From an uncultured Clostridia bacterium (lineage in GTDB: Bacteria; Bacillota; Clostridia; Oscillospirales; CAG-272), in the NCBI GenBank assembly GCA_944391815.1, contig CALXUV010000072.1:1-50873 (forward strand): DNA of 50,873 nucleotides. Reading direction: 5' to 3'. The notes beneath the pieces are model-generated. The model searched no databases and was not told the origin of the DNA. It worked only from the letters and a program-made list of their open reading frames with translations. The position numbers and the translations under genes were made by a program. Positions 8,038 to 19,972 of this stretch are shown piece after piece. The first letter of the stretch is position 1, and each line of letters begins with the position of its first letter.

Positions 8038-8391
8038 ATGACAACAAACGAAAGACGGGAGAAAATAATGCGTATTCTGTACGCAAAAGGGCATTGTACG
8101 ACATCTGAGCTTGCTGAAAACTTCGGTGTTTCGGAAAGAACAGTAAGAAGAGATATAGGTCTTCTGTCGCTGTCCAAACCAATTTACACTAAATCAGGAA
8201 AGAACGGAGGCGGGATTTATATTGTTGAAGGGTACCGGATTGACAGAAATTATTTCAGTACAGAAGAAGAAAATCTGTTGAAAAAAGTTGCCGAAATAGC
8301 CAAAAGATATGGCTGTTTACTCACAGAAGAAGAAAAGGATTTTCTCGATAAAACGCTCAGTTATCATTCAAAACCCAAAAAAGGAGCATAA
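8038..8391 (+). CDS. Small HTH regulator (YafY/DeoR-type N-terminal domain)
   Basis: A 117-residue protein consisting mainly of a winged helix-turn-helix: RREKIMRILYAKGHCTTSEL, then AENFGVSERTVRRDIGLLS, then a wing with GKNGGGIYI. This matches the N-terminal domain of YafY/DeoR-like regulators, but the usual C-terminal ligand-sensing WYL or sugar-phosphate domain is absent; only about 50 helical residues follow. It starts at ATG 8038, which lacks a close Shine-Dalgarno; AGGAGG at 7981 is too far, and upstream codons remain open in frame, so a non-ATG start is possible. It probably represses or activates a nearby promoter, with the one at 6874 a candidate. Confidence 0.7.
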   Translation: MTTNERREKIMRILYAKGHCTTSELAENFGVSERTVRRDIGLLSLSKPIYTKSGKNGGGIYIVEGYRIDRNYFSTEEENLLKKVAEIAKRYGCLLTEEEKDFLDKTLSYHSKPKKGA

Positions 8392-8527: not shown

Positions 8528-8556
8528 TTGACAAAATCTGCAAAATGTTGTATAAT
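8528..8556 (+). promoter_or_regulatory. Consensus promoter of the glutamate synthase operon
   Basis: Perfect TTGACA (8528-8533), 17-nt spacer, perfect TATAAT (8551-8556). Transcription should begin near 8563, right at the base of the leader hairpin. The GSIII promoter at 15840 has the same layout. Confidence 0.85.
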
Positions 8557-8566
8557 GCGATTTGAT

Positions 8567-8632
8567 GAGCAAAGACGTTCATTTGGTACAGAACTATCTG
8601 CACCGAAAGAATGTCTTTGCTCTTTTTATTTT
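8567..8632 (+). promoter_or_regulatory. Leader hairpin/attenuator before gltB1, probable ANTAR target
   Basis: GAGCAAAGACGTTC (8567-8580) pairs with GAATGTCTTTGCTC (8609-8622, one G-U pair). The interior continues as TTTGGT/ACC-G-AAA and CAG/CTG around a six-base loop AACTAT (8592-8597), then TTTTTATTTT. This is an intrinsic terminator placed between promoter and start codon, so full-length transcription should need antitermination. The outer stem GCAAAGAC/GTCTTTGC recurs in the GSIII leader. An ANTAR RNA-binding antiterminator encoded in the same block is the likely partner, although the canonical hexaloop (A1, G4) is not exactly met. Confidence 0.7.
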
Positions 8633-8660
8633 CTATTATTCAAGGAAAGGACAAGGCAAA

Positions 8661-9752
8661 ATGATAGAAGGTCAGGTAAGGATTCCTTCCGGTTGCGCGA
8701 TCGCAGCCATGATTTCAAAAGAAGGTAATAAAGTTAACGGTGAGAAAATAATTGCCGCCATGAAACCTATGCATGACCGTTCAAACGGTCTGGGCGGAGG
8801 CTTTGCCGCATACGGAATATATCCGGAGTATAAGGATTTTTACGCTTTTCACCTTTTTTTCAGTGACAGGGATACAAGAAAAAACTGTGAAAAGTATCTG
8901 AGAGAAGGCTTTGAGATAGTAAAGTCGGAGATAATTCCCACAAGAAAAATTCCGGCAATCAAAGACGAACCTATAATATGGAGATATTTCGTAACTCCTT
9001 TGAAATCAGTACTTCTTTCGCTTCAGCTTGACGAAAAGGAATTTGTTGCCCGTACCGTTATGAAGATAAATACCGAAATGAACGGTGCGTATGTTTTTTC
9101 GAGCGGAAAAAATATGGGTGCGTTCAAAGCGGTCGGATTTCCGGAGGACGTAGGAGTATTTTACCGGCTTGAGGAGTATGAGGGATATTCATGGACTGCG
9201 CACGGCAGATACCCGACTAACACACCGGGATGGTGGGGCGGAGCTCACCCGTTTACTTTGCTTGACTACTCGGTAGTGCACAACGGAGAAATATCCTCCT
9301 ATGACGCCAACCGCAGATTTATTGAGATGTTCGGCTACAAATGTACCCTTCAGACAGATACCGAAGTTATAACCTACATCATGGATTATCTGCTCAGGAA
9401 GTGCGGTCTTTCGCTGAAAGAGGCGGCGGCGGTAGTTGCGGCACCTTTCTGGTCGACGATAAACTCAGTTCAGGATGAAAAGGAAAAACAGAAACTCAGA
9501 TATCTGAGGACGGTTTTCAGCAGTTTGCTTGTAACAGGACCATTTTCAATAGTACTCGGGTTTGACGGAGGGCTTATGGCGCTCAATGACAGACTTAAAC
9601 TGCGTTCAATGGTCGTCGGAGAAAAAAGCGATATGGTCTACATAGCCAGCGAAGAAGCGGCGATACGTGTAATGGAACCGGATGCCGGGCATATTTATGC
9701 TCCTGCGGGCGGGGAACCGGTTATAGTTTGTCTTAAGGACGGTGATTATTGA
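8661..9752 (+). CDS. Glutamate synthase subunit GltB1, class II glutamine amidotransferase
   Basis: The free-standing glutaminase part of a split, archaeal-type glutamate synthase: it hydrolyses glutamine and passes ammonia to the FMN subunit encoded next. The 363-residue protein has the Ntn fold with SGCAIAA near the N-terminus (Cys12), SWTAHGRYPTNT, VVHNGEIS and LQTDTEVITY, all in family order. If Cys12 is the catalytic N-terminal nucleophile, an 11-residue leader must be removed, as in full-length GltB. ATG 8661 has AAGGAAAGG upstream; the frame is open further back, but that stretch is the leader hairpin. Its stop overlaps the next start by one base. Confidence 0.85.
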   Translation: MIEGQVRIPSGCAIAAMISKEGNKVNGEKIIAAMKPMHDRSNGLGGGFAAYGIYPEYKDFYAFHLFFSDRDTRKNCEKYLREGFEIVKSEIIPTRKIPAIKDEPIIWRYFVTPLKSVLLSLQLDEKEFVARTVMKINTEMNGAYVFSSGKNMGAFKAVGFPEDVGVFYRLEEYEGYSWTAHGRYPTNTPGWWGGAHPFTLLDYSVVHNGEISSYDANRRFIEMFGYKCTLQTDTEVITYIMDYLLRKCGLSLKEAAAVVAAPFWSTINSVQDEKEKQKLRYLRTVFSSLLVTGPFSIVLGFDGGLMALNDRLKLRSMVVGEKSDMVYIASEEAAIRVMEPDAGHIYAPAGGEPVIVCLKDGDY

Positions 9753-11257
9753 TGAGTATACAGTATGTTTATCCGGAATTTGAAGTTGTAAGGAACGAAA
9801 AAAGGTGTATAGCTTGCCGCGTATGTGAAAGACAGTGTGCAAACGGCGTTCACAGCTACGATCCGGACGGAAAAGTAATGATAAGCGATGAAGCGCAGTG
9901 CGTCAACTGTCAGAGATGCGTTTCTCTTTGCCCGACTCGTGCGCTTAAAATAGTAAAAAGCGATTGCCGGCTGAGGGAAAACGCCAACTGGCAGGATGAA
10001 ACCGTAAAGGAGATATACAAGCAGGCGGGAAGCGGAGGGGTGCTTCTCTCATCAATGGGTAACCCCAAGCCCATGCCGGTTTACTGGGATAAGATACTTA
10101 TAAATGCTTCACAGGTCACAAATCCTTCGATCGATCCTCTGCGTGAGCCGATGGAAACAAAAGTTTTCCTCGGAAAGAAAAACGGTGAAATCCGTAAAGA
10201 TGAAAACGGAGATATTATCTGTGAGCTTCCGCCGCAACTTGAACTTTCGATGCCGGTTATGTTTTCGGCAATGAGCTACGGTTCGATAAGCTATAATGCC
10301 CACAAATCACTTGCACTTGCGGCAACAGAGCTGGGAATACTCTACAACACGGGAGAAGGCGGACTTCATGAGGATTTTTACTGCTACGGCCCGAATACGA
10401 TAGTGCAGGTTGCGTCCGGAAGATTCGGAGTTCACAAAGATTATCTTGAAGCCGGAGCGGCGGTAGAAATAAAAATGGGACAGGGCGCAAAGCCCGGAAT
10501 AGGCGGACATCTGCCCGGTGCAAAAATAGTCGGGGACGTATCGAGAACGAGAATGATTCCCGAGGGCTCGGATGCCATTTCTCCGGCACCTCATCACGAC
10601 ATATATTCAATAGAGGACCTGAGACAGCTGGTTTATTCGCTGAAAGAAGCAACTGAATACAAAAAGCCGGTTATAGTCAAAGTAGCTGCAGTACATAACA
10701 TCGCTGCGATAGCAAGCGGAATAGCGAGAAGCGGAGCCGATATTATAGCAATTGACGGATTCAGAGGCGGAACCGGCGCGGCTCCCACGAGAATACGTGA
10801 TAATGTCGGTATACCGATAGAGCTTGCACTTGCTTCGGTAGACAAGAGGCTGAGGGACGAAGGAATACGCGGAAATGTATCAATTGTTGTCGGAGGAAGC
10901 ATAAGAAGCTCAGCTGATGTTGTCAAGGCGATAGCTCTCGGTGCTGATGCCTGCTATGTGGCAACAGCGGCACTGCTTGCTCTCGGATGTCATCTCTGCC
11001 GTACCTGCCAGAGCGGAAAATGCAACTGGGGAATAGCTACACAGAACCCGGAACTTGTAAAACGGCTTAATCCTGAGATCGGAAGCCGCAGACTTATAAA
11101 CCTTATGCACGCATGGAATCATGAAATAAAAGAACTTATGGGCGGAATGGGTATCAATTCAATTGAAGCCCTCAAAGGTAACAGACTTATGCTCAGAGGT
11201 ATAGGTCTTACCGAAAAGGAACTGGAGATACTCGGTATATCGCATGCAGGCGAGTGA
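9752..11257 (+). CDS. Glutamate synthase subunit GltB2, FMN-binding domain with N-terminal ferredoxin
   Basis: The 501-residue synthase core, which uses FMN to reduce 2-iminoglutarate to glutamate. Two [4Fe-4S] motifs, CIACRVCERQC and CVNCQRCVSLCP, occupy about residues 21-63. The FMN barrel follows with SAMSYGSISYNAHKSLA, MGQGAKPGIGGHLPG, DGFRGGTGAAPT and VVGGSIRSSADVVKA; CHLCRTCQSGKC near the C-terminus is the usual cluster-binding loop. Such archaeal/clostridial forms keep the amidotransferase and GXGXG domains on separate polypeptides, here the genes at 8661 and 13150. ATG 9752 overlaps the gltB1 TGA and has AAGGACGG upstream. Electrons probably come from the polyferredoxin and flavoprotein encoded downstream. 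Confidence 0.9.
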   Translation: MSIQYVYPEFEVVRNEKRCIACRVCERQCANGVHSYDPDGKVMISDEAQCVNCQRCVSLCPTRALKIVKSDCRLRENANWQDETVKEIYKQAGSGGVLLSSMGNPKPMPVYWDKILINASQVTNPSIDPLREPMETKVFLGKKNGEIRKDENGDIICELPPQLELSMPVMFSAMSYGSISYNAHKSLALAATELGILYNTGEGGLHEDFYCYGPNTIVQVASGRFGVHKDYLEAGAAVEIKMGQGAKPGIGGHLPGAKIVGDVSRTRMIPEGSDAISPAPHHDIYSIEDLRQLVYSLKEATEYKKPVIVKVAAVHNIAAIASGIARSGADIIAIDGFRGGTGAAPTRIRDNVGIPIELALASVDKRLRDEGIRGNVSIVVGGSIRSSADVVKAIALGADACYVATAALLALGCHLCRTCQSGKCNWGIATQNPELVKRLNPEIGSRRLINLMHAWNHEIKELMGGMGINSIEALKGNRLMLRGIGLTEKELEILGISHAGE

Positions 11258-11267
11258 AGGTGGAACT

Positions 11268-11438
11268 ATGAAAAGAATTAAAAGCAGTACCGGCAAACTT
11301 GTGATGTCTGCAATGATGGCGGCAGTTGTATGCGTCAGTACGATGGTTGTGAAAGTACCTGTTCAGGCGACGGGAGGCTACATCAACTTCGGAGATGCGG
11401 CTGTAATAATATGCGGGGTAATAAAGGTGACTCACTGA
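11268..11438 (+). pseudogene. Truncated ECF-transporter S-component remnant
   Basis: From ATG 11268, with AAGGTGG before it, the 56 residues read like the N-terminus of an energy-coupling-factor substrate-binding subunit: a basic start, a hydrophobic helix SAMMAAVVCVSTMVVKVPV, then ATGGYINFGDAAVIICG, which matches the family's GYxNxGD segment. Intact S components are about 170-200 residues with six helices; here the frame stops after VIKVTH and the next gene begins 27 bases later. I read it as the stub of a deleted gene. It may still be translated as a single-helix membrane peptide, because its start and ribosome binding site are intact. Its substrate is unknown. Confidence 0.6.
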
Positions 11439-11465
11439 ATTTCTGAACGGATAGGGAGAACAAAT

Positions 11466-11894
11466 ATGAAACGGGTATATGTAAATGAAGAATGGTGCCT
11501 CGGATGCCATCTCTGCGAATACAACTGCGCATTCGCAAATTCCGGGGAGGTCAATATGGTGAAGGCGCTGAAAGGAAAGAAAATATCGCCGAGAATATCT
11601 GTATGCGATAAAGATAATATCCATTTTGCCGTATCATGCAGACATTGCGAGGACGCTATATGCGTAAAAAGCTGCATTGCGGGTGCGCTCCATTACGAAA
11701 ATTCAGTTGTAGTTATAGATAAAACAAAATGTGTCGGATGTCTTACCTGCGTGCTTGTATGTCCTTACGGTGCAGTTACTGAAAGCGACAGCGGTGTTGC
11801 GACAAAATGCGAACTCTGTACAACAAATTTCCGTGGTACGCCGGCGTGCGTTGAGGGATGTCCGAATAAGGCAATAGTTTTCGAGGAGAGGTAA
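11466..11894 (+). CDS. Polyferredoxin, four [4Fe-4S] clusters (HycB/CooF-like electron carrier)
   Basis: A 142-residue iron-sulfur protein with four cysteine groups: CLGCHLCEYNC, CRHCEDAICVKSC, CVGCLTCVLVCP and CELCTTNFRGTPACVEGCP. This is the electron-transfer subunit pattern of HycB/CooF/NarH-type proteins. Between GltB2 and an NAD(P)H-type flavoprotein it most likely links that flavoprotein to the glutamate synthase FMN, replacing the classical GltD subunit (inference from position). ATG 11466 follows AGGGAGAAC. Only five bases separate its stop from the next start. Confidence 0.85.
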   Translation: MKRVYVNEEWCLGCHLCEYNCAFANSGEVNMVKALKGKKISPRISVCDKDNIHFAVSCRHCEDAICVKSCIAGALHYENSVVVIDKTKCVGCLTCVLVCPYGAVTESDSGVATKCELCTTNFRGTPACVEGCPNKAIVFEER

Positions 11895-11899
11895 GCGGT

Positions 11900-13147
11900 A
11901 TGGAAAGATATCTTATTATAGGCAACGGAGTTGCGGCTGCGGGTTGTATAGAAGGAATACGGAGCACTGACAAAACCGGACATATAACAGTGGTTTCCAG
12001 GGAAAATTATCCGGTATACTGCCGTCCTTTGATCTCGTATTATCTTGAAGGTAAAACCGAACTTGACAGAATGATGTACAGAGGTAAGGATTTTTACCGT
12101 GAAATGTCCTGCGATGTTATTTACGGAAAATCAGTGGTAAAGCTCGATGAAAAAGAGCACAGGGCACATCTATCCGACGGAAGTGTAATTGAATATACAA
12201 AGGCGTGCCTTGCAACGGGCTCAGTTCCTTTTCTGCCGCCCATGCAGGGAATTGAAAAGGTAAAAGAAAAATTTTCTTTTATGACAATTGACGATATGCT
12301 TTCAGTTGAAAAAGCAGTGGGACCGGAAAGCAAGGTACTGATAATCGGAGCGGGACTCATAGGTCTTAAATGTGCCGAGGGAATTGCCGGCAGAGCAGGA
12401 AAAATCACCGTTTGCGACCTTGCCGGAAGAATACTTTCAAGTATACTTGACGACGAGTCGGCGGAGATTGTAAAAAAGCATATTGAAAATCAGGGAATAG
12501 AATTTCTTCTTGGCGATACCGCAGAGCGGTTCGATGCAGAAAAAGCTTACATGAAGAGCGGAAAGACGGTGGATTTCGACGTTCTGATTACGGCAGTCGG
12601 CGTCCGTGCCGATACCGTTCTTCTTCGCGATACGGCAGCAAAAACCGTGCGTGGCGTGTTAGTTGACAGTCATATGAAAACGGATGCGCAGGATATATAT
12701 GCGGCAGGAGACTGTACGGAAAGCTATGACGTTTCGTCCGGACAGAATAAAGTTATGGCGTTGCTTCCGAGTGCGTACATGGAAGGAAAGTGCGCTGGAG
12801 TAAACATGGCGGGAAAAGAACAGACACTTGACGGTGAAATCCCGATGAACTCAATAGGATTTTTCGGACTGCATATAATGACAGCCGGAACCTATTGCAC
12901 GGAAAATGACGGAGGCAGTGTAATAACTGTGAGATATGAAAACGGACTGAGAAAATTCTTCCTTAAAGACGGTTATCTCAGCGGTTACATATTCGTCGGA
13001 GAAGTTGAAAGAGCAGGAATTTTCACATCACTTATAAGAAAGCGCGAACCTCTTTCGGAGGTTGACTTTGAACTTCTCAAAAAAAATTCGGATTATTCAG
13101 GTTTTTCTTCGGAAAACCGTAGAAAAATTTTCGGAGGTGTGGTATAA
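11900..13147 (+). CDS. FAD/NAD(P)-dependent oxidoreductase, rubredoxin/nitrite-reductase type
   Basis: A 415-residue two-dinucleotide-binding flavoprotein. The FAD site YLIIGNGVAAAGC is at residues 3-15, the NAD(P)H-binding VLIIGAGLIGLKCAEG lies near 150, and the FAD C-terminal motif DIYAAGDCTE near 270. Overall it resembles the NirB/rubredoxin-NAD reductase group. Within this operon it probably takes electrons from NAD(P)H and hands them to the adjacent polyferredoxin for glutamate synthesis. Start ATG 11900 follows GAGAGG. The next CDS begins two bases after its stop, indicating one transcript. The cofactor preference cannot be read from the motif. Confidence 0.85.
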   Translation: MERYLIIGNGVAAAGCIEGIRSTDKTGHITVVSRENYPVYCRPLISYYLEGKTELDRMMYRGKDFYREMSCDVIYGKSVVKLDEKEHRAHLSDGSVIEYTKACLATGSVPFLPPMQGIEKVKEKFSFMTIDDMLSVEKAVGPESKVLIIGAGLIGLKCAEGIAGRAGKITVCDLAGRILSSILDDESAEIVKKHIENQGIEFLLGDTAERFDAEKAYMKSGKTVDFDVLITAVGVRADTVLLRDTAAKTVRGVLVDSHMKTDAQDIYAAGDCTESYDVSSGQNKVMALLPSAYMEGKCAGVNMAGKEQTLDGEIPMNSIGFFGLHIMTAGTYCTENDGGSVITVRYENGLRKFFLKDGYLSGYIFVGEVERAGIFTSLIRKREPLSEVDFELLKKNSDYSGFSSENRRKIFGGVV

Positions 13148-13149
13148 TT

Positions 13150-13869
13150 ATGGTAATAGACGCAACGGAACACGATTTCAGACTTCTGAATGAAAAACTC
13201 CGCAGTGCAGACGGAGACTGCCATATAGTCGGATGTTGCGGGGAAAGATTCATAGCCGCCGGAATGAAAGAAAAAAACATCGTAATAGACGGCGTCCCGG
13301 GCAATGCTCTGGGAGCGTATCTTGACGGTGCAAAAATAACCGTTAACGCAAATGCGCAGGATGCGGTCGGCGACACAATGAACGACGGAATGATAGTGGT
13401 AAAAGGCAATATAGGAGACGCCGCCGGATATGCCATGAGAGGCGGAAAAATCTATGTAAGAAATAACGCCGGATACCGTGCGGGAATACATATGAAGGAG
13501 TACAAAGATAAAATACCGGTAATGATAATCGGCGGACGGTGCGGAAGCTTTCTCGGAGAGTATCAGGCGGGCGGTGTCATCATTGTGCTCGGTATGGGTG
13601 ACGGAGAAGGAAAAATAGTCGGCAATTTTCCATGTACCGGTATGCACGGCGGAAAGGTTTTTCTGCGCGGAGCGCATAAAGATATAAAACTGCCTTCACA
13701 GGTAAGTGCAAAAAAGGCAGGCGCAGACGATATGCGCGAGATAGCAGAGTACCTGAGCGAATACTGTAAAATATTCGGACTTGATGCTGACGAAATAACA
13801 GATTCGGAGTACACTCTCATAACTCCTGACAGTTCAAACCCTTATAAACAGCTGTATGTTGCTAACTGA
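13150..13869 (+). CDS. Glutamate synthase subunit GltB3, GXGXG domain
   Basis: A 239-residue right-handed beta-helix corresponding to the C-terminal structural domain of bacterial GltB. Its repeated Gly-x-x-x-Gly-x-x-x-Gly pattern is clear: DAVGDTMNDGMIVVKGNIG, DAAGYAMRGGKIYVR, then GRCGSFLGEYQAGG. In GltB this domain holds the ammonia channel and domain packing together; here it is a separate chain, completing the split enzyme with the genes at 8661 and 9752. A GGAGGT site (13133-13138) precedes ATG 13150. The order gltB1-gltB2-redox pair-gltB3-glnA on one strand makes a GS/GOGAT operon. Confidence 0.88.
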   Translation: MVIDATEHDFRLLNEKLRSADGDCHIVGCCGERFIAAGMKEKNIVIDGVPGNALGAYLDGAKITVNANAQDAVGDTMNDGMIVVKGNIGDAAGYAMRGGKIYVRNNAGYRAGIHMKEYKDKIPVMIIGGRCGSFLGEYQAGGVIIVLGMGDGEGKIVGNFPCTGMHGGKVFLRGAHKDIKLPSQVSAKKAGADDMREIAEYLSEYCKIFGLDADEITDSEYTLITPDSSNPYKQLYVAN

Positions 13870-13897
13870 AAGATAAAAAATTTAAGGCGGTATAAAT

Positions 13898-15112
13898 ATG
13901 AATTATTCGGCAAAAGAAGTAATGCAGTACGTAACGGAAGAGGATGTGAAGTTCATCAGGCTTGCGTTTTGTGACGTTTACGGAAAACAGAGGAATATTT
14001 CGGTAATGCCGGGAGAGCTTGAGCGTGCCTTTGATGAAGGAATCGCCATTGACGCCTCGGCAATTCCGGGATTCGGCGACGAAACGCATTCTGACCTTTT
14101 CCTCAGACCCTGCCCAACTACTTTGTCGCTTCTTCCATGGAGACCTGAACACGGAAGGGTTATCAGGATGTTCTGTGATATAAACAAACCTGACGGAAGT
14201 CCGTTTGAGGGTGACACAAGGAATGTTCTGAAGAAGGCTTGCGCTGAGGCGAAGCAGTCCGGACTTGAATTCCGTTTCGGTGCGGAGCTCGAGTTTTACC
14301 TTTTCAAAACAGATCATAACGGTTACCCGACAAAAGAGCCCTACGATCATGCCGGATATATGGATATTGCGCCTGATGATAAGGGAGAAAATGTACGCAG
14401 GGAAATATGTCTTACGCTCGAACAGATGGGAATATATCCCGAAAGCTCACACCACGAAGAAGGACCGGGACAGAATGAAATAGATTTCAGATATTCTGAT
14501 CCCATAATTGCGGCGGATAATTCCGTTACGTTCCGGTCGGTCGTGCAGGCGATTGCTCAGCGTAACGGACTCTGGGCTGATTTTTCACCCAAACCGCTTG
14601 AAAACCTTCCCGGTAACGGTTTTCACATAAACATGTCGGTAAAAAACGATGCCGACGGCGTTTATCTTAACCGAATGATAGCGGGAATTCTCGATAAAAT
14701 ACAGGATATTACGGTTTTCCTGAATCCCGAGGAGAATTCGTACAGACGTTTCGGGCACAGTAAAGCACCGAAATATATTTCATGGTCGTGTGAAAACAGG
14801 TCCCAGCTGATAAGAGTACCTGCAACCAACGGAGCTTTCAAACGCGCCGAGCTGCGTTCACCTGATCCGAGTGCGAACCCGTATCTGGCGTTTGCGGCGG
14901 TAATGTATGCGGCAACCGAAGGGATAACCGGCAATGCCGAACTTCCGGCTGCCACCGATATCAATCTTTTCACCGCTGACAAGGAAGTTTGCGACAGATT
15001 CAGACAGCTTCCTCAAACGCTCAAACAGGCGGCAAAGGAAGCGGCGGAAAGTAAATTTGTAGCGTCTCATTTCAGTAAACTGATAATAGATGCATACTGC
15101 AAGAGAACCTGA
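13898..15112 (+). CDS. glnA: Glutamine synthetase, type I-like (short)
   Basis: ATP-dependent glutamate-ammonia ligase of the GSI fold, 404 residues (typical GSI is about 440-470). Beta-grasp N-terminus followed by catalytic barrel: GAELEFYLFK, SSHHEEGPGQNEIDF, a diverged loop LPGNGFHINMS (usually GSGMHxH), NRSQLIRVP and RAELRSPDPSANPYLAFAA. It gives the operon its glutamine-forming partner for the split GOGAT. ATG 13898 follows AAGGCGG, and an ANTAR regulator gene follows 58 bases after the stop. A second, unrelated-size glutamine synthetase (GSIII) starts 1 kb away. Related gamma-glutamyl ligases share this fold, so true glutamine synthetase activity is likely rather than certain. Confidence 0.85.
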   Translation: MNYSAKEVMQYVTEEDVKFIRLAFCDVYGKQRNISVMPGELERAFDEGIAIDASAIPGFGDETHSDLFLRPCPTTLSLLPWRPEHGRVIRMFCDINKPDGSPFEGDTRNVLKKACAEAKQSGLEFRFGAELEFYLFKTDHNGYPTKEPYDHAGYMDIAPDDKGENVRREICLTLEQMGIYPESSHHEEGPGQNEIDFRYSDPIIAADNSVTFRSVVQAIAQRNGLWADFSPKPLENLPGNGFHINMSVKNDADGVYLNRMIAGILDKIQDITVFLNPEENSYRRFGHSKAPKYISWSCENRSQLIRVPATNGAFKRAELRSPDPSANPYLAFAAVMYAATEGITGNAELPAATDINLFTADKEVCDRFRQLPQTLKQAAKEAAESKFVASHFSKLIIDAYCKRT

Positions 15113-15170
15113 TAACTGCCTGAGAACGGAAAAGGCAACCGTTCAAAAAAATAAAGACAGGGAGGTATGT

Positions 15171-15755
15171 ATGTCGCTGCGCGAACATGTTTACAGCGTT
15201 CTCATAGTTTCTTCAAACGAAAATTTCAGTGCCTCTCTGACTGATTTTATGCCGGTCGGAAATTTCAGTCCGGTTTCGACTGCAACAAGTGTGAGTGAGG
15301 CAAAGCGCAGGCTTCAGGATCGTAAATTTGACTTCGTGATAATAAATTCTCCTCTTCCGGACGACTTCGGTTCTAAGCTGGCAACGGATATTTCTGCTGC
15401 AAGCCAGAGCGTTGTTTTGCTTCTGGTGCGCAATGAGATTTATGAAGGTGTATACGAAAAAGTCACCGACAGCGGAGTAATAACACTGTCAAAGCCTGTT
15501 TCAAAAGCAGTAATGACAGAGGTGTTGCGGATAATGGGTGCGGTAAGGGAAAGACTGCGTGCTCTTGAAAGGAAAACCTCGACTCTCGGTGAGAAAATGG
15601 AGGAGATAAGAACGGTCAACAGAGCAAAATGGCTTCTTATCGAACACCTGAAGATGACGGAAAGCGATGCACACAGATATATAGAAAAACAGGCAATGGA
15701 CAGGTGCGTATCCAAATCGGAAATAGCGAAAAGCATCATTTCAACATACTCCTGA
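15171..15755 (+). CDS. ANTAR-domain antitermination regulator with degenerate receiver (NitR-like)
   Basis: A 194-residue protein: receiver-like domain (about 8-120), a coiled linker, and an ANTAR RNA-binding three-helix domain (about 135-190) with IRTVNRAKWLLIEHLKMTES and the typical spaced alanines. ANTAR proteins bind paired RNA hairpins and prevent terminator formation; NitR of Clostridium saccharobutylicum does this next to glnA for nitrogen genes. The receiver lacks its phospho-acceptor: the position reads IIN59SPLP instead of D, and the acidic pair is SSN (14-16), though Lys108 is kept. Control is therefore likely by ligand or partner protein. ATG 15171 is favoured by GGAGG five bases upstream over the in-frame ATG 15090, which lies inside glnA. 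Confidence 0.85.
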   Translation: MSLREHVYSVLIVSSNENFSASLTDFMPVGNFSPVSTATSVSEAKRRLQDRKFDFVIINSPLPDDFGSKLATDISAASQSVVLLLVRNEIYEGVYEKVTDSGVITLSKPVSKAVMTEVLRIMGAVRERLRALERKTSTLGEKMEEIRTVNRAKWLLIEHLKMTESDAHRYIEKQAMDRCVSKSEIAKSIISTYS

Positions 15756-15839
15756 AAAAACAAGGGAGCAGCTCATAAGGCGGTCAGATGCGACGCAAAA
15801 AGTTTTTGAAAAAAATTCTGATTTTTTTGAAAAAAGGTA

Positions 15840-15868
15840 TTGACAAATCGAAATAAATGGTGTACAAT
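15840..15868 (+). promoter_or_regulatory. Promoter of the GSIII-amt operon
   Basis: TTGACA (15840-15845), 17-nt spacer, TACAAT (15863-15868). The predicted start near 15875 is a few bases before the leader hairpin, the same geometry as at 8528. Confidence 0.8.
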
Positions 15869-15880
15869 ATGTTTCGTTAA

Positions 15881-15921
15881 GGCAAAGACGTCTTTTGAAA
15901 GGTGTCTTTGCCTTTTGCTTT
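15881..15921 (+). promoter_or_regulatory. First leader hairpin of GSIII, related to the gltB1 leader
   Basis: GGCAAAGAC (15881-15889) pairs with GTCTTTGCC (15904-15912); two wobble pairs and CTTT/AAAG extend the stem inward. TTTTGCTTT follows, so it may itself terminate. The outer stem shares GCAAAGACGT/GTCTTTGC with 8567-8622. GCCTTT at its 3' edge (15910-15915) could instead pair with AAAGGC (15979-15984) of the downstream terminator, an alternative fold expected for antitermination (inference). Confidence 0.7.
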
Positions 15922-15977
15922 AACCGTAACAACCGGTAGTAAAAGTCGGTCACAGCATTAATAAAAGAATACAAAAA

Positions 15978-16025
15978 CAAAGGCAATGGCGTCTTCGGTG
16001 AAAAACCCGGGGCGCCTTTGTTTTT
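15978..16025 (+). terminator. Attenuator terminator in the GSIII leader
   Basis: CAAAGGC (15978-15984) pairs with GCCTTTG (16014-16020), with an internal GGT/ACC helix, then TTTTT. It lies between promoter and start codon, so it acts as a leader terminator. The 340-base gap 15756-16095 is thus explained as promoter, hairpin, attenuator and ribosome binding site (AAAGGAGAA, near 16081). Confidence 0.75.
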
Positions 16026-16095
16026 AAAAAAAGCCAACCGAAATGCCGGTTAAGACGAACCGGTGTTTCCGAAAAAATAAAAAGGAGAAAAAGTT

Positions 16096-18192
16096 ATGGC
16101 AAAGGTTTCGGATTATTTTGGAAGTATGGTTTTCGATGACAGAGTAATGAAAGCAACTCTGCCGGCAAAAGTATATGCTTCGCTCAGAAAAACCATAGAC
16201 GAGGGACAGCAACTTGACATAGGAGTAGCCAACGCCGTTGCAACGGCGATGAAAGACTGGGCTGTTTCAAAAGGTGCAACGCATTACACACATTGGTTTC
16301 AGCCGCTGACAGGAATAACTGCCGAAAAACACGACAGCTTCATTGCTCCGTCCCCTGACGGCGGAGTTATTATGGAGTTTTCGGGTAAAGAGCTGATAAA
16401 AGGCGAACCCGATGCTTCTTCTTTCCCTTCCGGCGGACTTCGCGCCACTTTCGAAGCGAGAGGTTATACAGCATGGGACCCGACATCTTATGCTTTTGTA
16501 AAAGGTAAAACACTTTGCATTCCTACGGCGTTCTGTTCATACGGCGGCGAGGCGCTTGATAAAAAAACACCTCTTCTCCGTTCAATGGAAGCGCTGAATG
16601 TTCAGGCACTGAGAATACTTAAACTTTTCGGAAATGACTCGGTAAAATGCGTAAAGACATCGGTGGGACCTGAACAGGAATATTTCCTTGTTGACAAAGA
16701 AATGTATGACAAGAGAAAGGATCTTGTCTATACAGGCAGAACGCTTTTCGGTGCAAAGCCGCCCAAAGGACAGGAAATGGACGACCATTATTTCGGAGTG
16801 ATAAAGCCCCGGGTAGCCGCGTACATGGAGGATCTGAACGAAGAGCTCTGGAAGCTGGGAATACTCGCCAAAACCGAACACAACGAAGTGGCACCTGCAC
16901 AGCATGAGCTTGCCCCGATCTATTCAACAACAAACGTGGCAACGGATCACAACCAGCTGACAATGGAAATAATGCAGAAGGTTGCGGCAAAACACGGACT
17001 TGTGTGCCTGCTGCATGAAAAACCGTTTGCCGGGGTTAACGGAAGCGGAAAGCATAACAACTGGTCGATATCCACCGACAGCGGCGTCAATCTTCTTTCG
17101 CCCGGCGAAACACCTTATGAAAACGCACAGTTCCTGCTTTTCCTCTGTGCCGTGATAAAAGCGGTAGACGATTATCAGGATCTGCTCAGAATATCGGTTG
17201 CGACAGCAGGAAACGATCACAGACTCGGAGCAAACGAGGCTCCGCCTGCAGTTGTTTCGATGTTCCTCGGAGACGAGCTGAGCGCAGTGCTTGACGCAAT
17301 AGAAAATGACGCTCCGTACAGTGCGGCTGAAAAAACTCAGATGAAGCTCGGTGTAAGCGTACTTCCGAAATTCACAAGAGATACAACCGACAGAAACCGC
17401 ACATCGCCGTTTGCATTTACCGGCAACAAGTTTGAATTCCGTATGCTCGGTTCGTCAAACAGTATCGCTTGTGCAAACATTATGCTGAATGCGGCAGTGG
17501 CAGAATCGCTTGAACAGTATGCTGATATCCTTGAAAAGGCAGAGAATTTCCGCGATGCGCTCCAGAAGCTGATTAAAGATACAATAAAAGAGCATAAGAG
17601 AATAATTTTCAACGGAAACGGTTACGATGAGCAGTGGATAAAAGAAGCAACGGAGAAGAGAGGTCTTCTTAATTATGCGACAACCGCTGACTGTGTCGGA
17701 CATCTTCTCGACGAAAAGAATGTAAATATGCTGACAAAGCATAAGGTATTTTCCGAAACAGAGCTTAAATCGAGATACGAGATAACGCTTGAAAATTACT
17801 GCAAGACGGTAATTATAGAAGCAAAAACAATGTGCGATATGGCGAGAACAGAGATAATACCTGCGGTAGAAAGCTATGCAGCGGACGTTGCAAAAGCAAT
17901 GAGTCTGAAGCAGTCTGTCGGCGAGGCAATTTCGGTTTCTTATGAAAAAGCACTGCTTGTAAAGCTTACCGGACTTGTTGAATGTATGGCAATGAAAACT
18001 GACGAGCTTGAAAAAGCACTCGGAAAAGTTGCCTCTGAGTCAGACATAGCGGATGAGTCAATGGCAGTCAAAGACGAACTGCTTGTCAAGATGAGTCAGC
18101 TCAGAGCTGTTTGCGACGAAGCGGAAACTGTAACCGCAAAGAAATACTGGCCTTTCCCCCGTTACGGCGAACTGCTTTTCGGGGTAAGATAA
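16096..18192 (+). CDS. glnN: Glutamine synthetase type III (GSIII)
   Basis: A 698-residue class III glutamine synthetase, the large dodecameric form found in Bacteroidetes, cyanobacteria and rumen Clostridia. Diagnostic segments are THWFQPLTG (about 73-81), [17 protein letters not shown] (about 192-202), [28 protein letters not shown] (about 314-327) and [14 protein letters not shown]. Length equals the family norm. It assimilates ammonium with ATP and glutamate. It starts at ATG 16096 behind AAAGGAGAA and is followed 31 bases later by the ammonium channel, so uptake and fixation are co-transcribed. The leader suggests antitermination control shared with the glutamate synthase operon. Confidence 0.95.
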
Positions 18193-18223: not shown

Positions 18224-19972
18224 ATGGCAGAAGAGTTTTCGGAACTGGTAAAAGAAGCGGTAACTTCTGAAGTTTTCGCTGTCTGGTTCCTGATCGGTGC
18301 GGCACTGGTATTCTTTATGCAGGCCGGATTTGCAATGGTGGAGACGGGTTTCACAAGGGCGAAAAACGCAGGAAACATCATAATGAAAAACCTGATGGAT
18401 TTCTGTATCGGAACTGTGGTTTTCGTTCTCCTCGGATTCAGCTTGATGATGGCGCAGGATTACGTTTTCGGAATAATCGGAATTCCGAATCTTGAAATTT
18501 TCACCGACTTTGGAAATTTCGTTGACAACTACGCTTCAAGTTTTGTTTTCAACCTTGTATTCTGTGCTACCGCTGCAACCATAGTCTCGGGAGCAATGGC
18601 TGAAAGAACAAGATTCATAGCCTACTGCATCTATTCGGGAGTCATTTCGCTTTTTGTATATCCGATCGAAGCAGGTTGGGTTTGGAACTCAAAAAGTTGG
18701 CTTGTTAATCTCGGATTCCATGACTTCGCAGGCTCGGCGGCAATTCATACGGTCGGCGGACTTACGGCTCTCATCGGAGCGATAATGGTCGGACCGAGAC
18801 TCGGAAAGTATCTGAAAGACAAATCCGGAAAAGTGACAAAGGTAAACGCAATTCCCGGACATTCCATAACTCTGGGAGCCCTCGGATGCTTTATCCTTTG
18901 GTTCGGATGGTACGGATTCAACGGTGCGGCGGCTTGGGACGGTGCCTCACTTGCTTCAATTTTCCTTACCACGACTATTGCGCCTGCGGTTGCAACTTGC
19001 ACCACGATGGTGTTCACCTGGATTAAAAACGGAAAGCCTGATGTTTCGATGTGTCTTAACGGTTCGCTTGCCGGACTTGTCGGAATCACGGCAGGATGCG
19101 ATGCGCTTGACGCACTCGGCGCAACAGTGGTCGGAGTTGTTTCCGGTATTCTGGTAGTTGTGGCAGTTGAATTCCTGGATCTCAAATTACATATCGATGA
19201 CCCGGTCGGAGCTGTCGGAGTACATCTGGCAAACGGAGTCTGGGGAACGCTTGCAGTCGGACTTCTTGCAAACCCTGCAGCTCCTGCCGGACTTGAAGGA
19301 CTGTTTTATACCGGCAATCCGAGACTTTTCGGAGTACAGCTGCTCGGAATCGTCTGTATCATTGCATGGACTGCAGTTTGCATGACTGTTACCTTCATCG
19401 TTCTGAAGAAAACAGTCGGACTGAGAGCTTCTGCAGAGGAGGAAATCAAAGGTCTGGATCTCACCGAGCACGGACTTCCCAGTGCTTATGCTGACTTTGT
19501 TCCGGCGGTTGAAAGCCTTGACTACGGATTTGAAAACGCCACTGTGGTTTCCGGAGAGATCCCGGTAGCGGAAGCGGTTCCGGTAAAGAAGGTTCCGGAA
19601 TTCTCAGACGGTTCACCTAAATTCACAAAGGTTGAGATAATCTGTAAGGAAAGCCGTTTCGAATCGCTGAAAAAGGCAATGACAGGGCTCGGAATAACCG
19701 GAATGACTGTTTCGCATGTACTCGGCTGCGGACAGCAGAAGGGTAAACCGGAATATTACCGTGGAGTTGAGGTTGAAGCGACGCTTCTCCCCAAGGTACA
19801 GGTTGACATCGTGGTAAGTAAGGTTCCGGTAAGAAGCGTAATCGAGACAGCAAAGAAGGTTTTGTATACCGGTCATATCGGAGACGGAAAAATATTTGTT
19901 TACGACGTTGAAAACGTTGTAAAGGTCCGCACCGGCGAAGAAGGATACGACGCGTTGCAGGACGTTGAATAA
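18224..19972 (+). CDS. amtB: Ammonium transporter fused to a C-terminal PII domain
   Basis: A 582-residue fusion. Residues 1 to about 410 form an Amt/Rh channel with about eleven membrane helices; DFAGSAAIHTVGG and DDPVGAVGVHLANGVWGT carry the two pore histidines. After a linker rich in Val, Pro and Glu, about residues 465-575 are a PII (GlnB/GlnK) domain: KVEIICKESRFESLKKAM, a T-loop with YYRGVEVEATLLPKVQVDIVV, and TGHIGDGKIFVYDV. In stand-alone PII the T-loop reads YRGxEY, with the last Tyr uridylylated; here that position is Val. The fused domain probably gates the channel by binding ADP/ATP and 2-oxoglutarate rather than by covalent modification. The start at 18224 follows GACGGGAG. Confidence 0.92.
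   Translation: MAEEFSELVKEAVTSEVFAVWFLIGAALVFFMQAGFAMVETGFTRAKNAGNIIMKNLMDFCIGTVVFVLLGFSLMMAQDYVFGIIGIPNLEIFTDFGNFVDNYASSFVFNLVFCATAATIVSGAMAERTRFIAYCIYSGVISLFVYPIEAGWVWNSKSWLVNLGFHDFAGSAAIHTVGGLTALIGAIMVGPRLGKYLKDKSGKVTKVNAIPGHSITLGALGCFILWFGWYGFNGAAAWDGASLASIFLTTTIAPAVATCTTMVFTWIKNGKPDVSMCLNGSLAGLVGITAGCDALDALGATVVGVVSGILVVVAVEFLDLKLHIDDPVGAVGVHLANGVWGTLAVGLLANPAAPAGLEGLFYTGNPRLFGVQLLGIVCIIAWTAVCMTVTFIVLKKTVGLRASAEEEIKGLDLTEHGLPSAYADFVPAVESLDYGFENATVVSGEIPVAEAVPVKKVPEFSDGSPKFTKVEIICKESRFESLKKAMTGLGITGMTVSHVLGCGQQKGKPEYYRGVEVEATLLPKVQVDIVVSKVPVRSVIETAKKVLYTGHIGDGKIFVYDVENVVKVRTGEEGYDALQDVE

Follow-up and report, generated by a model that had tools for sequence, protein, structure and literature searches.

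Antitermination of nitrogen genes by ANTAR proteins, NitR among them, is already known (PMC3369931, PMC6316151, PMC4676874). NitR has been proposed as an antiterminator that induces glutamine synthetase (GS) and glutamate synthase (GOGAT) genes in nitrogen limitation (PMC6316151, PMC4676874), with no RNA element described in the passages cited. The ANTAR literature is built on a target of two hairpins, P1 and P2, with a six-base loop (hexaloop) that has A at position 1 and G at position 4 (A1/G4); searches requiring two would miss leaders that have a single hexaloop. Walshe 2022 reported contact of an ANTAR dimer with a single hexaloop at any one time, deemed natural single sites possible and called for bioinformatics on the extent of their use (PMC8934654). 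How widely, then, does nature use one hexaloop? Here we analyze a 50,873-nt stretch from an uncultured Clostridia bacterium (contig CALXUV010000072.1; hereafter the window), in which two adjoining nitrogen units begin with such hairpins and a NitR-like ANTAR protein is encoded at 15171-15755. We consider it highly probable that this protein acts by NitR-type antitermination through a single hexaloop.

Leaders of the two nitrogen units

Each unit is presumably transcribed as one message, as its gene order suggests. The promoters, TTGACA-17-TATAAT for unit 1 (8528-8556; 12 of 12 consensus bases) and TTGACA-17-TACAAT for unit 2 (15840-15868; 11 of 12), are the best two of 21 promoter-like sites found between 7500 and 20900 on both strands, which bears out their placement at the leader starts in an earlier reading made from the letters alone (the sequence-only reading). 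All features of the two units lie on the forward strand. Unit 1 opens with an ANTAR-type single hexaloop hairpin, GATGAGC-AAAGAC-GTTCATT (8564-8583), closed by a C-G pair and up to 7 bp long, which is mutually exclusive with intrinsic terminator 1 (8567-8622; U-rich tract from 8623). In unit 2 a first hexaloop hairpin, AAGGC-AAAGAC-GTCTT (15879-15894), is overlapped by terminator 2a (15879-15914), and a second, tandem one, AAGGC-AATGGC-GTCTT (15980-15995), by terminator 2b (15979-16025). All three elements carry A1 and G4 in the loops AAAGAC or AATGGC and are closed by C-G. On folding, the 5' arm of each terminator is able to refold as the small hexaloop hairpin. There is one hexaloop per terminator, about 2 nt from the predicted start.

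The sequence-only reading had drawn the paired arms at 8567-8622, 15879-15914 and 15979-16025, and these do fold as claimed. It had taken a GCAAAGACGT/GTCTTTGC stem for the recognition hairpin; we reject that candidate, which is terminator. The long GCAAAGAC/GTCTTTGC stem is likewise the terminator, whose formation ANTAR binding would block, and it was because this long stem was inspected that the motif had seemed not to fit the A1/G4 hexaloop, a statement that all three window elements contradict. Terminator 1 was correctly recognized as a fold, but its predicted loop is four bases (ACTA) and becomes six only if one pair opens. The proposed switch letters GCCTTT (15910-15915) and AAAGGC (15979-15984) are present, but they can pair because the hexaloop motif occurs twice; as a switch this is not a general feature, no second element having been found in 28 of 57 leaders of type III glutamine synthetase (GSIII) genes. 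The hexaloop scan also returned a three-pair AAG-AATGTC-TTT (8607-8618), which sits in the 3' arm of terminator 1 and was not used.

Elsewhere in the same genome, an exact-arm search gave 1 forward match against 1 control match and is uninformative, its gap limit having excluded leader 1. A degenerate loop pattern gave 54 sites against 63 for a control pattern. Apart from the three elements of the leaders there are 51 sites, and the 50 that were read included none with a stable hexaloop joined to a convincing terminator; the remaining site, outside those 50, lies at 16231 of the window on the minus strand, inside the GSIII gene. No hexaloop was seen upstream of a second GSIII copy in this genome (L403).

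The hexaloop element in relatives

GSIII loci were drawn from 40 of the 86 ANTAR-bearing genomes of the window's family and scanned for a promoter, C(A..G..)G and at least four stem pairs. This gave 41 seed leaders, one of which (L001) comes from the window and represents it in the set; 37 were aligned, with L030, the leaders on the minus strand of L045 and L059 and the one on the plus strand of L058 excluded. Stem positions pair in 88.4% of cells, versus 70.5% with shuffled partners and 41-49% when the arms are slid. Since the seed had been chosen for paired stems, conservation was retested without any loop or stem requirement. Protein matches in L034-L063 and L234-L313 served to locate GSIII and GOGAT starts, and beyond these only a promoter agreeing with the consensus at 10 or more of 12 bases was required. 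A hairpin with a 6-nt loop and at least five pairs lies 8-32 nt past the -10 box in 99 of the resulting 109 leaders, and 80 of the 99 loops are A1/G4 (chance, 1 in 16). Together with the window elements, this removes the ground on which the sequence-only reading had suggested a new RNA recognition. At tandem-copy distances A1/G4 was found in 9 of 24 (60-84 nt) and 6 of 21 (100-124 nt). With the loop string alone as criterion, 103 of the 109 leaders qualify, with stem positions 2-6 paired in 95, 98, 98, 93 and 84%. The 32 distinct stems pair at 4.13 of five positions versus 3.05 with shuffled partners (sd 0.15, highest 3.5); for GSIII leaders alone (26 stems) the values are 3.92 and 3.15 (highest 3.65), and the six GOGAT stems are too similar for a covariation comparison.

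Does the element follow the regulator? The 198 family genomes already surveyed for ANTAR genes were searched with a covariance model of promoter plus hexaloop (R1; threshold E <= 1e-5). Matches occur in 63 of 86 genomes with an ANTAR gene versus 2 of 112 without (Fisher 1.8e-29), and in 38 of 61 versus 2 of 112 after removal of the 25 genomes that supplied the model (7.7e-20). Within 27 genera of mixed status the counts are 37 of 50 versus 1 of 63 (permutation P <= 1e-5); this test dropped G179, whose genus has no ANTAR-bearing member in the set. G179 is one of the two matching genomes without an ANTAR gene, and its match (L203) has no proper hexaloop; the other, G189, has one. In a class-wide draw of 293 genomes, with lists matched by eye and the loops of the positives not verified singly, 40 of 156 ANTAR-bearing genomes matched versus 1 of 137 others, and the 41 positives span 19 families. 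Among 80 contigs of named genomes with a close ANTAR relative, 47 hold 83 matches (E <= 1e-5), 82 of them with the loop; carriers include Neglectibacter timonensis, Enterocloster hominis, Mediterraneibacter glycyrrhizinilyticus and Eubacterium sp. 14-2. The first two are cultured, and the element is present at L313 and L297. The proposal of the sequence-only reading that one ANTAR regulator serves both units through a shared leader motif is probably right: motif and ANTAR genes occur together both between and inside genera, and the gene at 15171-15755 is the sole ANTAR gene found in its genome (2.35 Mb; 94.5% complete).

R1 gave 129 matches in the family (L094-L222), of which 127, from 64 genomes, have C(A..G..)G in the expected place and form the set of checked leaders; the other two were excluded for want of the loop string: L196, in which T replaces the closing C, and L203. 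L213, L214 and L218 exceed the threshold with no nameable nitrogen gene downstream and may be false matches, and L119 and L173 run to a contig end. The seed scan set no condition on loop base 2, and all 127 have A there; position 3 is variable, with A in 89, T in 18, G in 12 and C in 8. The stem begins a median of 2 nt, and at most 15, from the predicted start. The terminator arm takes at least 4 nt of the hexaloop element in 117 of the 127, and in 118 the fold of lowest energy up to the U tract lacks the hexaloop hairpin. Terminator folds have a median of -21.6 kcal/mol and reach -10 or lower in 111 of 127 versus 160 of 381 shuffles (strict test). A P1 hairpin and linker need about 17 nt upstream; therefore, given correct predicted starts, none of the 127 has room for them.

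Single hexaloops extend beyond R1. The ANTAR regions were read in 11 of the 23 ANTAR-bearing family genomes that have no R1 match, and L226, L228 and L233 show single hexaloops with other stems. As a separate observation, the hexaloop and terminator of L226 (about 3120) and L233 (minus strand, about 2189) lie right after the ANTAR stop codon, apparently as an intergenic attenuator that is not linked to a promoter. In GS-ANTAR operons of other families of the class, 15 of 22 upstream regions hold a single hexaloop; shuffles averaged 0.68 (maximum 3 in 200), and elsewhere in these loci the count was 14 of 132 comparison windows. These come from 24 hand-chosen genomes, 6 already model-positive (2 among the 15), with two loci of unclear orientation excluded, and covariation counts at this level rest on elements chosen for paired stems.

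Targets, regulator and glutamine synthetase homologue

The nearest downstream homologue of a window gene is GSIII for 57 of the 127 leaders, GOGAT for 47, amtB-PII for 3, GS I for 3, ANTAR for 1 and guaA for 1, with none for 15; 110 of these 112 homologues begin at most 300 nt from the leader. NCBIfam names 10 of the 15 remaining targets: gdhA (3), pyrG (2), dapF (2), purC, purF and purA. These further targets in relatives (gdhA, purC, pyrG, dapF, purF, purA and guaA) are found at L097, L105, L162, L164, L169, L186, L192, L193, L195, L220 and L221. The predicted regulon thus extends to glutamine-consuming biosynthesis. A second hexaloop hairpin lies 62-176 nt downstream in 33 leaders (29 of the 57 GSIII leaders, 1 guaA and 3 unassigned); the terminators of these tandem hexaloops were judged by eye and unscored.

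The ANTAR protein itself, whose identification in the sequence-only reading holds, is NitR-like, with a receiver followed by a complete ANTAR domain (Pfam, 57.1 bits against a curated cut-off of 27.3). Its gene adjoins a GS gene within a nitrogen cluster, as in the NitR type. The receiver match falls below its cut-off (Response_reg, 28.0 against 30.2 bits), and the EutV-type phospho-acceptor is absent: Asn stands where 1s8n and EutV have Asp in 31 of 31 family proteins aligned to 1s8n. In EutV, Lys149, Glu160 and Tyr164 hold G4 of the hexaloop (PMC8934654). In our register these align with K153, E164 and H168, none of which varies among the 31 proteins; EutV Arg142 is unmatched. In 20 model-positive genomes of the class the receiver residue is Asn in 15, Gly in 2, His in 2 and Val in 1.

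The gene directly before that of the ANTAR protein (13898-15112) encodes a GS I homologue that scores 327.1 bits with TIGR00653, below the equivalog cut-off of 429.15 for GS I. By domain scan and homologue alignment, Lys takes the place of the catalytic flap Glu at residue 289 and Asp that of its Arg partner at residue 61; the protein is a candidate sensor for the ANTAR protein. Of 81 sources searched for homologues beside ANTAR genes, 72 gave a long match, and the homologue of the window is one of these. D54, E134, E196, H245, R298, R316, E333 and R335, numbered by motifs, are kept in 71 or all of the 72. Glu304 and Arg62 are named in PMC9249791, where they fix the glutamine-bound state. The flap Glu is replaced by Lys in 71 of 72 and by Arg in 1, and Arg62 by Asp in 59. 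In a family set of 43 sources Lys occurs in 31 of the 40 with a match and Glu in 2, one of which is merely a 23% match. Outside the family the flap is mixed: 20 model-positive class genomes have Lys in 14, Glu in 3 and Asn, Ser and Asp in one each, and 15 GS beside ANTAR genes in 30 model-negative class genomes have Glu in 13, with one uncovered and one in an alignment gap. The single hexaloop thus has a wider distribution than the Lys-flap GS. The Lys-flap homologue may be a pseudo-enzyme sensor or an enzyme using another amine. Neither the altered homologue, nor the Asp-to-Asn receiver, nor the presence of one hexaloop per terminator instead of two had been remarked on in the sequence-only reading.

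The remaining genes complete the two units. GOGAT at 8661-13869 is split into separate genes for a protein with the glutaminase-type domain, the first gene of unit 1 (8661-9752; Pfam GATase_2), a synthase domain protein with a ferredoxin domain (9749-11257; Pfam Glu_synthase) and, by Pfam scan, a 4Fe-4S protein (11466-11894), a pyridine nucleotide-disulphide oxidoreductase (11900-13147) and a GXGXG domain protein (13150-13869). Unit 2 encodes GSIII (16096-18192; Pfam GSIII_N, 270.6 bits) and next, by domain scan, an ammonium transporter fused to a PII domain as a single protein of 582 aa (18224-19972). An ORF with an HTH_11/DeoR-like helix-turn-helix (8038-8391) lies directly upstream of unit 1.

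Mechanism, rival explanations and known systems

Computation gives the motif and the covariation of its stem, shows that motif and terminator exclude each other, and identifies the link to ANTAR genes, the targets, the absence of P1 and the altered residues; from these we infer binding, antitermination, its direction and the signal. Transcription would begin at the near-consensus promoter, and by default the nascent RNA would fold into the terminator a few dozen nucleotides past the start. In the alternative fold, a small hairpin with the hexaloop C(AANGNN)G would arise from the first 16-20 nt. If the ANTAR protein bound this single hexaloop, presumably under nitrogen shortage, the 5' arm of the terminator would stay occupied and RNA polymerase could read through. 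In unit 1, read-through would express the GOGAT/GS-like/ANTAR operon and so constitute autoregulation; in unit 2 it would reach GSIII-amtB, with two switches in series before GSIII. The receiver has no phospho-acceptor Asp, and therefore the signal probably comes from a protein partner, for which the GS homologue directly before the ANTAR gene would be the best candidate. One may go further and propose NitR-type control throughout the Clostridia, with transcript-start single-hexaloop attenuators on nitrogen and glutamine-using genes and, in gut lineages, a Glu-to-Lys (usually also Arg-to-Asp) GS homologue that signals to an unphosphorylatable receiver: pseudo-enzyme to pseudo-receiver to RNA. 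We put this forward tentatively and, taken as a whole, somewhat doubt it.

Several points weigh against antitermination through one hexaloop. Because the seed was chosen for C, A1, G4, a closing G and at least four stem pairs, the letter invariance among model matches and much of the pairing in the 37 aligned leaders are built in. In the unbiased test 10 of 109 leaders have no such hairpin, and 19 of the 99 hairpins have other loop letters. Terminator prediction is unspecific alone, a loose test being passed by 327 of 381 shuffles, and the transcript start sites are predicted. No R1 match was found in 23 of the 86 ANTAR-bearing family genomes, and the association of motif and ANTAR gene is partly relatedness. 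For EutV, induction in vivo was lost without P1 (PMC3369931) and, in vitro, antitermination was abolished once the linker was lengthened (PMC8934654); a single hexaloop may therefore be thought insufficient.

Might the target after all be the canonical dual one, with a P1 that is degenerate or lies further upstream of a misplaced start? The dual rule rests on genetics and biochemistry in Enterococcus faecalis (PMC3369931), and the starts used here are predicted. Yet a G-C-closed A..G hexaloop occurs 2-30 nt upstream of only 3 of 127 leaders, 0 of 33 tandem elements and 0 of 16 class-level elements, and a relaxed scan on both sides gave 35 of 127 versus 155 of 635 shuffles (about 28% versus 24%), with no clear enrichment. 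When applied to 36 other ANTAR loci (two overlapping), a dual-hexaloop finder returned one convincing case, AAGCAC-ATCGTT-GTGCTT, a linker of 11 and GGC-AAAGCA-GCC (L368); dual sites can therefore be found where they exist, and we judge this explanation improbable. The L368 site (1704-1830) is a textbook dual hexaloop and terminator directly after a EutV-like ANTAR gene with the receiver Asp.

A metabolite riboswitch or self-contained attenuator, responding for instance to glutamine and merely near an ANTAR gene, would also place leader and terminator before nitrogen genes, as seen here. Rfam covariance models gave 0 matches at gathering score within the window and none at the leaders of seven relatives (L284, L247, L313, L297, L279, L243 and L260); an aptamer this small would be unusual, and the motif follows ANTAR genes inside genera; we regard this possibility as very unlikely. 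We think as little of a DNA operator downstream of the promoter, in which the inverted repeat would be a repressor or activator site. Its near-fixed spacing to near-consensus promoters and partial palindrome would suit an operator, but 118 of 125 distinct leaders have G-U at pair 2, and G-U pairs in RNA and not in a DNA palindrome, which therefore speaks for an RNA element. Against an operator stand also loop letters without two-fold symmetry, the overlap with the terminator arm in 117 of 127 leaders and the 33 leaders with tandem copies further downstream. Finally, the ANTAR protein could bind the hexaloop and favour termination, or act by some other route of opposite sign. The hexaloop hairpin, however, excludes the terminator (118 of 127 minimum-energy folds) and NitR is reported as an antiterminator (PMC6316151); of all the readings, this one seems to us the least credible. 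Antitermination through a single hexaloop thus remains the reading we prefer.

What is new here? As far as the literature searched goes, it is the transcript-start single-hexaloop form, its breadth and the adjoining Lys-flap GS; the original NitR paper (Stutz 2007), which that search did not cover, may depict a leader hairpin. The result is a concrete ammonium-assimilation regulon in gut Clostridia with an unexpected candidate sensor, a GS homologue with a conserved flap Lys. It raises the questions of how one hexaloop can suffice and why it is placed at the first transcribed bases, which the 127 checked leaders in 64 genomes, with the class-level examples, make directly testable.

Like NitR of Clostridium saccharobutylicum and Clo1313_2030-2036 of Clostridium thermocellum, the window encodes its ANTAR protein with ammonia-assimilation genes (PMC6316151, PMC4676874); in contrast, the GS adjoining it is usually of the Lys-flap form in the window's family, whereas Glu is kept by 13 of 15 class-level GS. 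The arrangement resembles GlnA-GlnR, in which GS is the nitrogen sensor of a regulator encoded alongside (PMC9249791), a role that by analogy the homologue here may play. Unlike in that system, the partner would be an RNA-binding ANTAR protein and not a DNA-binding one, and Glu304 and Arg62 are Lys and Asp. With EutV of Enterococcus faecalis (eutP and other targets) the window shares the A1/G4 hexaloop, a terminator over the last hairpin and the ANTAR output domain (PMC3369931). It differs in having one hexaloop in place of P1 and P2, a receiver Asn in place of the phosphorylated Asp, and A as loop base 2 throughout the checked leaders. Measured against the ANTAR target RNA of Ramesh 2012, the leaders have the A1/G4 hexaloop on a paired stem and the terminator overlapping the last hairpin, and do not have two hexaloops with a short linker. 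Whereas in Walshe 2022 both hairpins needed contact for antitermination (PMC8934654), the window and its relatives present a large natural set of single hexaloops on terminators.

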